Assembly: GCA_938084135.1 (NCBI GenBank)
Contig: CALKDS010000035.1
Span: 1 to 64,000, forward strand
Direction: 5' to 3'
From: an uncultured Flavobacteriales bacterium
GTDB taxonomy: Bacteria > Bacteroidota > Bacteroidia > Flavobacteriales > Schleiferiaceae
Length of the DNA: 64,000 nucleotides
The notes below the pieces were generated by a model, which saw nothing but the letters and a program-made list of their open reading frames with translations, searched no databases and was not told the origin of the DNA. Numbering within the stretch: the stretch's first letter is position 1; every line of letters starts with the position of its first letter. Below, in pieces: positions 45,868 to 49,374 of the stretch. Position numbers and translations under genes: made by a program.

Positions 45868-47754
45868 GTGAATTCCATCCATTTAGAAAGTATAGATTTA
45901 ATAATAATTTCTGCAATATTAATTATAATTATTGGTGTTGGGATTTGGGTAGGTCAGTCCTCTAAACGCTCATTAGAGGGTTTTTTTTTAGGAGGCAGAA
46001 ATATCCCCTGGGCACTCGCTGGACTATCAATGGTAGCAACAACTTTTGCTGCTGATACTCCTCTTGCTGTTACAGAAATAATTGGAATGGATGGAGTTTC
46101 AGGAAACTGGATTTGGTGGAATTTACTAGCAGGAGGAATGTTGACCTCGATTGTTTTCGCTCCGCTATGGCGAAGAGCTCGTGTTGTTACTGAAGCTGAA
46201 TTAATAGAGCTCCGGTACCACGGAAAACCAGCATTTATACTGCGGGTGTTTAGAGCAATTTATCTAGGGTTTTTTATAAATCTCCTCATTCTAGGGTGGG
46301 TCCATGTTGCCATGATCTCTGTTCTAGAAGGGTTGTTTGGGATTCCTTATGATCACGCTTTTGGACTTACTGCTATAATAACTTTACTTGTCGCAGTTTA
46401 TGCAGCTCTCTCCGGTCTTCTTGGTGTTGTAGTAACGGATGCCATGCAATTTATAATAGCAATGACTGGAAGTATAGCTCTCGCTGTATTCGTTATTCAT
46501 TCAGAAGAAGTTGGAGGGCTTTCTGGACTCAAATCTTCACTCTCTTCCGAGCAGTTAAATTTCTTTCCGGATTTTTCAAAAGATAATACAGATGGCTTTG
46601 CTATTGGTATAGGTGCCTTTTTTGCTTACTTTGGAATGATGTGGTGGAGCACTTGGTATCCCGGAGCAGAGCCAGGAGGAGGAGGTTATATAGCCCAACG
46701 AATAATGAGCTCAAAAAATGAATCTCATGCCATCGGGGCTACCTTATTTTTCAATTTTGCACACTATGCGTTAAGGCCTTGGCCTTGGATATTGGTTGGT
46801 CTAGCATCTTTAACACTATTTAATGTTGAAAATCACACTCCAGATAACCTAAAAAAAGAATTAACCGAGGTTAAAGCGATGCAAGGTTATTCTCCTGATT
46901 GGCTTTCCGGGGAAAACAGCCCGAATAATGTTTCAGACGCAACCAAAGTTTTAATAGTTCGAGAGGGTCTTAGGCAAGCGGCTTACAAAAATCCAAAACT
47001 TGCCGAAGCAATAAATTATGAGATTCACCCAAGATTTGGATACATATATGCCATGAAACATTACTTGCCAAAAGGGTGGATGGGATTAATGCTGGTGGCA
47101 TTTCTTAGTGCATACATGAGTACAATCTCAACACAACTTAATTGGGGAGCATCATACTTGATTAATGATGTCTGGCTTAGAGTAAAAAGTGAATCTCCCC
47201 AAGATAAAATAGTTGTCCAAAATAGTAGGTGGCTTATTGGAATTTTAGCAAGTATAAGTCTTCTAGTTTCTACTCAAATTCATAGTATTTCAGGAGTTTG
47301 GAAATTCATAATGGAGTGTGGGGCCGGACTTGGGCTTGTACTAATCTTAAGATGGTTTTGGGGGAGAATAAATGCTTGGGTAGAAATAACTGCTACAATA
47401 ACCCCATTTATAGGATATTCCATTGCTCGCTACTTTTTCCATCTCAAATTTCCGAATTCTTTCTTTTTTACCGTTGGTTTAACTACGGCAGCATGGCTCA
47501 TAGTTTTATTTTATACCAAAGAATCCAAACAATGGATATATTTTAAATCTCGTGTCTTTGATAAAGGCATGACATCAATAGGTGTTCTTTTCTTAAGATG
47601 GATTCTTGCGGTTGTATCTGCTTACTCATTACTATTTGGAATTGGAGGATTATTATTACATAGTATCGAGGAAGGCCTAATTTACCTTTTCTCATTTGGA
47701 ATAAGTGGTATTTTATTAATTCTAAGCTATCGAAATCAACCTATCAAAAATTAA
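45868..47754 (+). CDS. Na+:solute symporter family protein
   Basis: GVGIWVGQSSKRSLEGFFLGGRNIPWALAGLSMVATTFAADTPL SSS-family signature; GTG start. Confidence 0.92.
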   Translation: MNSIHLESIDLIIISAILIIIIGVGIWVGQSSKRSLEGFFLGGRNIPWALAGLSMVATTFAADTPLAVTEIIGMDGVSGNWIWWNLLAGGMLTSIVFAPLWRRARVVTEAELIELRYHGKPAFILRVFRAIYLGFFINLLILGWVHVAMISVLEGLFGIPYDHAFGLTAIITLLVAVYAALSGLLGVVVTDAMQFIIAMTGSIALAVFVIHSEEVGGLSGLKSSLSSEQLNFFPDFSKDNTDGFAIGIGAFFAYFGMMWWSTWYPGAEPGGGGYIAQRIMSSKNESHAIGATLFFNFAHYALRPWPWILVGLASLTLFNVENHTPDNLKKELTEVKAMQGYSPDWLSGENSPNNVSDATKVLIVREGLRQAAYKNPKLAEAINYEIHPRFGYIYAMKHYLPKGWMGLMLVAFLSAYMSTISTQLNWGASYLINDVWLRVKSESPQDKIVVQNSRWLIGILASISLLVSTQIHSISGVWKFIMECGAGLGLVLILRWFWGRINAWVEITATITPFIGYSIARYFFHLKFPNSFFFTVGLTTAAWLIVLFYTKESKQWIYFKSRVFDKGMTSIGVLFLRWILAVVSAYSLLFGIGGLLLHSIEEGLIYLFSFGISGILLILSYRNQPIKN

Positions 47755-49236
47755 ATGAAACCCGCAAATATTATTTTCCCTCACCAGCTGTTTAAAGAAA
47801 GTCCATTATTAAGAGAAAAAGGTGACTTTTATTTAATTGAAGAGCCCCTTTATTTTAATTACTTCAAATTTCATGTTCAGAAGCTAGTACTTCATAGGTC
47901 ATCGATGAAATATTATTTTGACTTTCTTTTAAAAAAGAATAAAGTTGCTAAATATTTAAATTTCGGTGACAGCATTGCAGATGTTAGGGAATTGATCCCT
48001 CATTTAAAAAAGAATCAGTATTCACACATAAATTACATCGATACCAATGACAACTATATAGAAAGACGCCTTTTGAAGACAGCAAATATTTCGCAAATAA
48101 AGCTAAATAGAATAGAGAGTCCAATGTTTCTGAATTCATCTGATGACCTTGAGGGGTTTTTCGATTCTAAAAAGAAAAAATTTTTTCAAACATCATTTTA
48201 TATACAGCAAAGAAAAAAATTAGGGATTTTATTGGACTCTTCAGACGGACCAATCGGCGGGAAATGGAGCTTCGATACCGAGAATAGAAAAAAGTATCCA
48301 AAAGATAAAACCCCTCCAAAAGTTGGTAGTTTAATATTAGATAAATTTTTTCAAGAAGCGTCAAACTATGTCCAAGAACATTTTAAATCAAATCCAGGTG
48401 TTTTTACTGACCAACCCATTTACCCTCATAATCATAAATTAGCAGATGAATGGTTGGAGCTTTTTGTTTTGGATCGATTGAATGATTTTGGGAATTATGA
48501 AGACGCAATGGTGCAGAGTGAATCTTTTTTAAATCATAGTGTGCTATCTCCAATGCTAAATTGTGGATTAATTACACCTAAACAAGTCGTAAATAAAATT
48601 TTACTTTTTCAAGATAAATATTCTTTAAACTCGATAGAAGGATTCATAAGGCAAATTATTGGTTGGAGAGAGTTCATAAGAGGGATTTACATAGTTAAAG
48701 GGAGTGAGGAGAGAACCACTAATTTTTTCAAATTCAATAGAAAAATTCCACCATCTTTTTATGATGCAACCACTGGAATTTTACCCGTCGACATTACAAT
48801 AAAAAAACTTCAAAAAACAGCATATAATCATCATATTGAGAGGCTAATGGTATTAGGTAACTTTATGATGCTATGCGAATTTGACCCAGATGAAGTTTAT
48901 AAATGGTTCATGGAGCATTACATCGATGCATATGATTGGGTTATGGTTCCCAATATTTATGGGATGAGTCAATTCGCTGACGGAGGACTAATGTCTTCAA
49001 AGCCATATATATCAAGTAGTAACTATCTCAAAAAAATGAGTGATTTCCCTGATGGCGATTGGAGAAAAATTTGGGACGGATTATATTGGAGGTTTATAGA
49101 TCTAAATAGAGATCTATTTAATAAAAATGTCCGAATGAAATTTATGGTTAATATGTTGGATAAAATGAACCCTGAGAAAAAACAAAACCATTTTAATGCT
49201 GCCAATTTATATTTGGCAGCATTAGATAAGACTTAA
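47755..49236 (+). CDS. Cryptochrome/photolyase family protein (FeS-BCP/(6-4) photolyase-related, apparently lacking Fe-S ligands)
   Basis: PANIIFPHQLFKESPLL N-terminus; RQIIGWREFIRGIY; MSQFADGGLMSSKPYISSSNYLKKMSDF...LYWRFI. Confidence 0.9.
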   Translation: MKPANIIFPHQLFKESPLLREKGDFYLIEEPLYFNYFKFHVQKLVLHRSSMKYYFDFLLKKNKVAKYLNFGDSIADVRELIPHLKKNQYSHINYIDTNDNYIERRLLKTANISQIKLNRIESPMFLNSSDDLEGFFDSKKKKFFQTSFYIQQRKKLGILLDSSDGPIGGKWSFDTENRKKYPKDKTPPKVGSLILDKFFQEASNYVQEHFKSNPGVFTDQPIYPHNHKLADEWLELFVLDRLNDFGNYEDAMVQSESFLNHSVLSPMLNCGLITPKQVVNKILLFQDKYSLNSIEGFIRQIIGWREFIRGIYIVKGSEERTTNFFKFNRKIPPSFYDATTGILPVDITIKKLQKTAYNHHIERLMVLGNFMMLCEFDPDEVYKWFMEHYIDAYDWVMVPNIYGMSQFADGGLMSSKPYISSSNYLKKMSDFPDGDWRKIWDGLYWRFIDLNRDLFNKNVRMKFMVNMLDKMNPEKKQNHFNAANLYLAALDKT

Positions 49237-49300
49237 CTTAAGCTTAAAGTCAAGCATAAAGAGAACGGAAAAATCATTAATATGAACTATTCCGCTATTG

Positions 49301-49374
<74 letters not shown>

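Follow-up and report, generated by a model that had tools for sequence, protein, structure and literature searches.

The open reading frame that follows the sodium:solute symporter gene in the window (the whole stretch of 64,000 nucleotides analysed here, from an uncultured marine Flavobacteriales bacterium) is very probably the gene for a functional prokaryotic (6-4) photolyase of the previously described type that carries no [4Fe-4S] cluster. This reading draws on sequence comparison and a structural model. Cluster-free (6-4) photolyases are already known, and the window protein adds a member to a group that is common in Bacteroidia. The features discussed below are collected in Table 1.

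Table 1. Features of the photolyase gene and its surroundings (window coordinates)
Feature	Position	Strand	Basis
Sodium:solute symporter gene, directly upstream with zero spacing; left border of variable site	45868..47754	+	
Cluster-free prokaryotic (6-4) photolyase gene, 493 aa	47755..49236	+	ORF call, Pfam, PDB matches, Foldseek
N-terminal DPRP (antenna) domain, residues 6–218	47770..48408	+	Pfam, alignment
Asp174 (PhrB D179), Mg2+ site, invariant	48274..48276	+	34 + 22 sequence comparison
Asp250 (PhrB D254), Mg2+ site, invariant	48502..48504	+	34 + 22 sequence comparison
Cys270, other of two Cys	48562..48564		
Tyr336 (PhrB Trp342, outer photoreduction Trp)	48760..48762	+	Tyr in 33/34 cluster-free
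Pro344 replacing Fe–S ligand Cys350	48784..48786	+	Pro in 34/34 cluster-free, Cys in 22/22 Fe–S
His359–His360 (PhrB H365/H366), catalytic pair	48829..48834	+	Alignment
Cys374, one of two Cys	48874..48876	+	Cys in 29/34 cluster-free, 0/22 Fe–S
DPDEVYKWF (residues 377–385): Trp384 (PhrB W390) kept, Phe385 (PhrB Y391); not a canonical Fe–S ligand site	48883..48909	+	Alignment
Met397 (PhrB E403 position), beside FAD N5	48943..48945	+	Met in 34/34 cluster-free; significance from PMC9178010
YISSSNYLKKMSDFPDGDWRKIWDGLYWRFI (residues 418–448): lesion-side Tyr418 and Tyr424 (PhrB Y424, Y430) kept	49006..49098	+	ORF translation, alignment
Phe431/Pro432 junction; ten Fe–S-loop residues including C438 and C441 absent	49045..49050	+	PhrB alignment
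WRKIW: Trp436, Lys438 (for ligand Cys454), Trp440	49060..49074	+	Trp436 in 34/34 cluster-free, never in Fe–S; Trp440 in 28/34
tRNA-Ala(ggc), right border; in G009 and G012 present without photolyase gene	49300..49374	-	

Family assignment and fold

The protein matches the Pfam DPRP family (PF04244, E=4.4e-48) and, weakly, the photolyase FAD domain (PF03441, 3.3e-5, slightly under the curated cut-off), the domain combination of prokaryotic (6-4) photolyases. Among solved structures it is closest to A. fabrum PhrB, the C. crescentus enzyme (CcPL) and R. sphaeroides CryB, with E-values of 1e-67 to 1e-71, and the closest named genomes are those of uncultured marine Cryomorphaceae and Owenweeksia sp. 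TMED14. An AlphaFold2 model built from 35 sequences (window and locus) has a mean pLDDT of 91.5, with values of 92–95 at residues 421–450 and a poorly modelled segment at residues 401–420. Foldseek comparison of this model with PhrB (4DJA) gives TM-scores of 0.93/0.90, as expected for a PhrB-like fold; prokaryotic (6-4) photolyases account for all of the top 11 matches, and the family that follows reaches a TM-score of only ~0.6. The domain and PDB matches, alignment and model thus bear out the first-pass annotation of this DNA, which had proposed a (6-4)-type photolyase with fold and FAD region intact, and the two peptides that it quoted, DPDEVYKWF and the segment beginning at Tyr418, are both present in the translation.

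Absence of the four cluster ligands

The four cysteines that bind the [4Fe-4S] cluster in PhrB, and that define the FeS-BCP subtype, are all missing from the window protein. In the alignment to A. fabrum PhrB, the C350 column is occupied by Pro344 and the C454 column by Lys438, and C438 and C441 fall in a gap created by the 10-residue deletion. This agrees with the earlier claim that the ligand cysteines are absent and the loop shortened. The same annotation had placed the fourth ligand at ‘DPDEVC’, which was an error: PhrB has His388 in that column and the Bacteroidota Fe–S forms have Asp. The actual fourth ligand, PhrB C350, lies about 38 residues further upstream. Alignment with PhrB, the check that the annotation had proposed, also revealed no compensating cysteines anywhere in the 493-residue protein, which contains only C270 and C374. 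Some cluster-free relatives (L011, L037) have the same architecture and a single cysteine in the whole protein. With two cysteines here and one in these relatives, a cysteine-ligated 4Fe-4S site cannot have been rebuilt elsewhere in the protein.

Pro344 was found in all 31 cluster-free representatives compared initially and in all 34 of the later set, and the shortened loop is present in every one of them, varying in length by one residue only. Such recurrence is not explained by chance or sequencing error.

Residues surrounding the former cluster site

Four positions that surround the former ligand loop are fixed or mostly fixed in the cluster-free forms. Pro344 and Trp436 are the invariant pair; Trp440 is replaced by Phe in 21 of the 22 Fe–S sequences, and Asp441, present in 33 of 34 cluster-free sequences, is replaced by Asn in the Fe–S forms. 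Cysteine mutants of PhrB are insoluble (PMC4619345), and a cluster-free enzyme therefore needs some substitute for the cluster. The alignment and model suggest that Pro344, Trp436 and, in most members, Trp440 form a packed aromatic core in its place. In our proposed mechanism, the short loop and these residues would pack the C-terminal core such that the cluster is not needed for folding. The cluster's role in (6-4) photolyases is unsettled in the field, and the clade-fixed residues provide a short list that could be grafted into PhrB.

Catalytic and photoreduction residues

We compared functional residues across 34 cluster-free and 22 Fe–S sequences. His360, Tyr418, Tyr424, Asp174, Asp250 and Trp384 are invariant in both sets, and His359 is conserved in 31 of the 34 cluster-free sequences. 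The window protein has the full complement of PhrB residues H365/H366, Y424, Y430, D179 and D254. PhrB depends on H366 and Y424 for repair at all and on Y430 for efficient repair (PMC4619345). The gene is also under constraint, as indicated by dN/dS values of 0.09–0.19 relative to four congeneric species. The intact lesion-binding, catalytic and Mg2+-binding residues, together with purifying selection, make it likely that the window protein is an active enzyme.

The residues associated with photoreduction have changed. PhrB W342 and W390 carry electrons during photoreduction (PMC4619345), and only the second is retained here, as Trp384. Tyr336, Phe385 and Met397 give the window protein the attributes described for ‘subgroup M’, which commonly has Met near FAD N5 and has no intact electron chain. 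Phe and Met at PhrB positions 391 and 403 also occur in some Fe–S forms (Nostoc, Streptomyces), so these substitutions are no consequence of the absence of the cluster. By analogy with PhrB, reduced FAD would be excited by blue or UVA light and would donate an electron to the (6-4) lesion, His360 serving as the proton donor; photoreduction would proceed by a changed route, given the Trp342 to Tyr change and the replacement of the N5-facing Glu by Met.

Three divergent cluster-free relatives (L143 from G291, L144 from G241, and L155) have Phe or Ile in place of Trp390, and L143 also has Gln in place of Pro344. It is possible that these proteins have lost repair activity or have a cryptochrome-like role.

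Antenna pocket

Most of the DMRL pocket of PhrB is altered in the window protein. PhrB L8/G9/D10, E37, H43, I51 and R108 correspond to F/P/H, Y, F, H and Y, respectively, and E33, K47 and M55 are kept. L8-G9-D10 is F-P-H in most of the cluster-free forms; aromatics take the place of the E37–R108 salt bridge, with Phe for H43 and His for I51. The alterations to the pocket make a DMRL antenna unlikely on sequence grounds, and the protein may lack an antenna. Lumazine synthase is encoded in the window's genome. FO synthase (8-HDF synthase) was not found in the window's own genome, a fragmentary assembly that is about 80% complete, nor above the family cut-off in any of 148 Bacteroidia.

Relationship to known (6-4) photolyases

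Homologs without the cysteines have been reported several times: as 7% of 464 sequences in 2015 (PMC4619345); in 2022 as ‘subgroup M’, defined by cysteine absence and comprising 20 of 110 sequences from multiple lineages (PMC9178010); and again in 2025 for several orthologs (PMC12082625). The window protein, itself lacking the cysteines, fits this published group to judge from its sequence. As described in PMC9178010, ‘subgroup M’ includes Prochlorococcus marinus PromaPL (Ma et al. 2019 FEBS J, cited therein) and shares with the window protein the missing Fe–S cysteines, Met near FAD N5, the lack of an intact PhrB-type electron chain and a (6-4) photolyase core. The window protein differs in its lineage, marine Flavobacteriales, the comparison with PromaPL being one of description only.

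The FeS-BCPs PhrB (4DJA), CryB (3ZXS) and those from C. crescentus (9HNK) and V. cholerae (7YKN/8A1H) have the same fold (TM 0.90–0.93) and have the catalytic, lesion-binding and Mg2+ residues in common with the window protein. Relative to them, the window protein has none of the four ligands, a loop shorter by 10 residues, Tyr for Trp342, Met for Glu403 and an altered antenna pocket. Synechococcus elongatus SePhrB (8IJY) resembles the window protein in that a Met lies close to N5 and the electron chain is interrupted (PMC9178010), but carries both an Fe–S cluster and an 8-HDF antenna. The frequency of the cluster-free form in Bacteroidia, its strict either-or relationship with the Fe–S form and the fixed Pro/Trp set appear to be new, none of them having been found in the main texts of the papers cited here.

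Distribution in Bacteroidia

Profile scores for a sample of 396 Bacteroidia genomes fall into two groups, one of at least 450 bits and the other of about 400 bits or less. Every typed member of the upper group is cluster-free, and an Fe–S form heads the lower group. By this division, 69 genomes have the cluster-free form and 91 the Fe–S form, such that cluster-free enzymes constitute 69 of the 160 prokaryotic (6-4) photolyases in the sample. The first-pass annotation had implied that such proteins are rare; this frequency, and the fact that publications have described the group since 2015 or earlier (PMC4619345; PMC9178010), argue otherwise.

None of the 396 genomes has both forms, where about 16 would be expected if they were independent (a count that ignores shared ancestry). 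In a reciprocal search, an Fe–S query against 73 cluster-free genomes matched only the cluster-free gene. An apparent second copy in one genome (G418) is another fragment of its cluster-free gene (L142), and a second photolyase match in the window's genome (G000 C25:653-1258, L002) is a 360-residue short photolyase-like protein; neither is an Fe–S form. The latter has no N-terminal domain and resembles the published SPL class, proposed to be family ancestors.

In other genomes, class I/DASH or short photolyase genes lie next to both forms, as do a flavin-reductase-like and an SDR gene. The either-or distribution and these common light-repair neighbours fit one interchangeable role for the two forms. 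The occurrence of both enzymes within one genus, and elsewhere in one light-repair neighbourhood, provides a matched pair with which to ask whether the cluster is only structural. We also note that this neighbourhood (L087–L094, L037, L039, L048, L011 and L012) includes DUF2805 and sometimes GTP cyclohydrolase I; in three Flavobacteriaceae, GTP cyclohydrolase I is encoded close to the (6-4) photolyase.

A phage-borne origin was also considered. The window photolyase has no match in 50,697 phage records, and two cluster-free matches in viral contigs look cellular. One of these (L151:546-2183, labelled viral in IMG/VR) adjoins an msrA-like gene and is likely a cellular fragment.

Alternative interpretations

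A cryptochrome-like sensor or degenerate photolyase, with the fold kept and DNA repair gone, could account for the changes at Trp342 and Glu403 and would have precedent in the two divergent relatives, L143 and L144, from which Trp390 has disappeared. We consider this improbable, because His359/His360, Tyr418, Tyr424, Asp174, Asp250 and Trp384 are all kept, purifying selection on the window gene is strong and the cluster-free form never accompanies an Fe–S (6-4) photolyase in one genome; SePhrB, moreover, repairs DNA although its chain is broken in a similar way and a Met lies close to N5 (PMC9178010). An Fe–S or other metal centre bound through other ligands (C374, C270, His or Asp) would make sense of a cysteine at position 374 that is frequent in cluster-free forms and never seen in Fe–S forms, but is very improbable given the deleted ligand loop, the total of two cysteines and the one-cysteine relatives of the same architecture. 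The assembly is metagenome-derived, and an assembly or sequencing error could in principle have removed the loop; this idea is refuted because four congeneric genomes, and many from isolates (Dyadobacter, Winogradskyella, Paucihalobacter), have the identical deletion, and we give it essentially no weight. A working cluster-free photolyase is the interpretation that we favor.

A different question, compatible with that interpretation, concerns history only: is the cluster-free state the older one, with the Fe–S cluster gained by the other branch? In a tree of 67 sequences, a single branch with 100/100 support splits the Fe–S from the cluster-free forms, with the Bacteroidota and Alphaproteobacteria cluster-free sequences together on one side. 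The branch is old, and the change in cluster state, in whichever direction, did not happen in the window's lineage. Whether short photolyase-like or class I/DASH proteins serve as the outgroup, the best tree is rooted among the cluster-free sequences and the Fe–S forms constitute one clade (99–100%), as a gain would predict. The outgroup branches are saturated (length 5), however, and trees in which the cluster-free forms are held together are not rejected (AU p 0.54 with the short photolyase-like and 0.18 with the class I/DASH outgroup). The same values mean that outgroup rooting cannot separate gain from the loss that the first-pass annotation had called probable. A comparable four-Cys cluster region in primases (PMC3204975) and the published view that the cluster is an early trait which other photolyases have lost (PMC4619345) also weigh against gain, which we regard as a tentative possibility. 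The combined proposal, that a plug of Pro344, Trp436 and Trp440 functionally replaces the [4Fe-4S] cluster and that the cluster-free state is ancestral, is more doubtful still. If true, (6-4) photolyases would have acquired their cluster later, as a structural element, and it would not be a relic.

The photolyase locus within the genus

Among 22 genomes of the window's genus, 5 have the cluster-free gene, 13 the Fe–S form and 4 neither. All five cluster-free genes are at one site, between the sodium:solute symporter gene and tRNA-Ala/TonB receptor, and the Fe–S gene, where present, is at another location. In the sister species G009 and G012, the symporter, tRNA-Ala and TonB receptor neighbours are present with nothing between them. 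The empty site implies that gain or loss affected the gene as a whole, and in our model it would have entered or left the genus in this way; cysteine-by-cysteine decay was not seen in the genus. Within one bacterial family (f1; L013–L016 compared with L010 and the window), three photolyase versions are found, an LGD-type cluster-free, an FPHQ-type cluster-free and an Fe–S form, which suggests frequent transfer. The window's genome also has a microbial rhodopsin gene (G000 C6:53556-54227), as do 18 of the 22 genomes in the genus, which fits life in the sunlit ocean.
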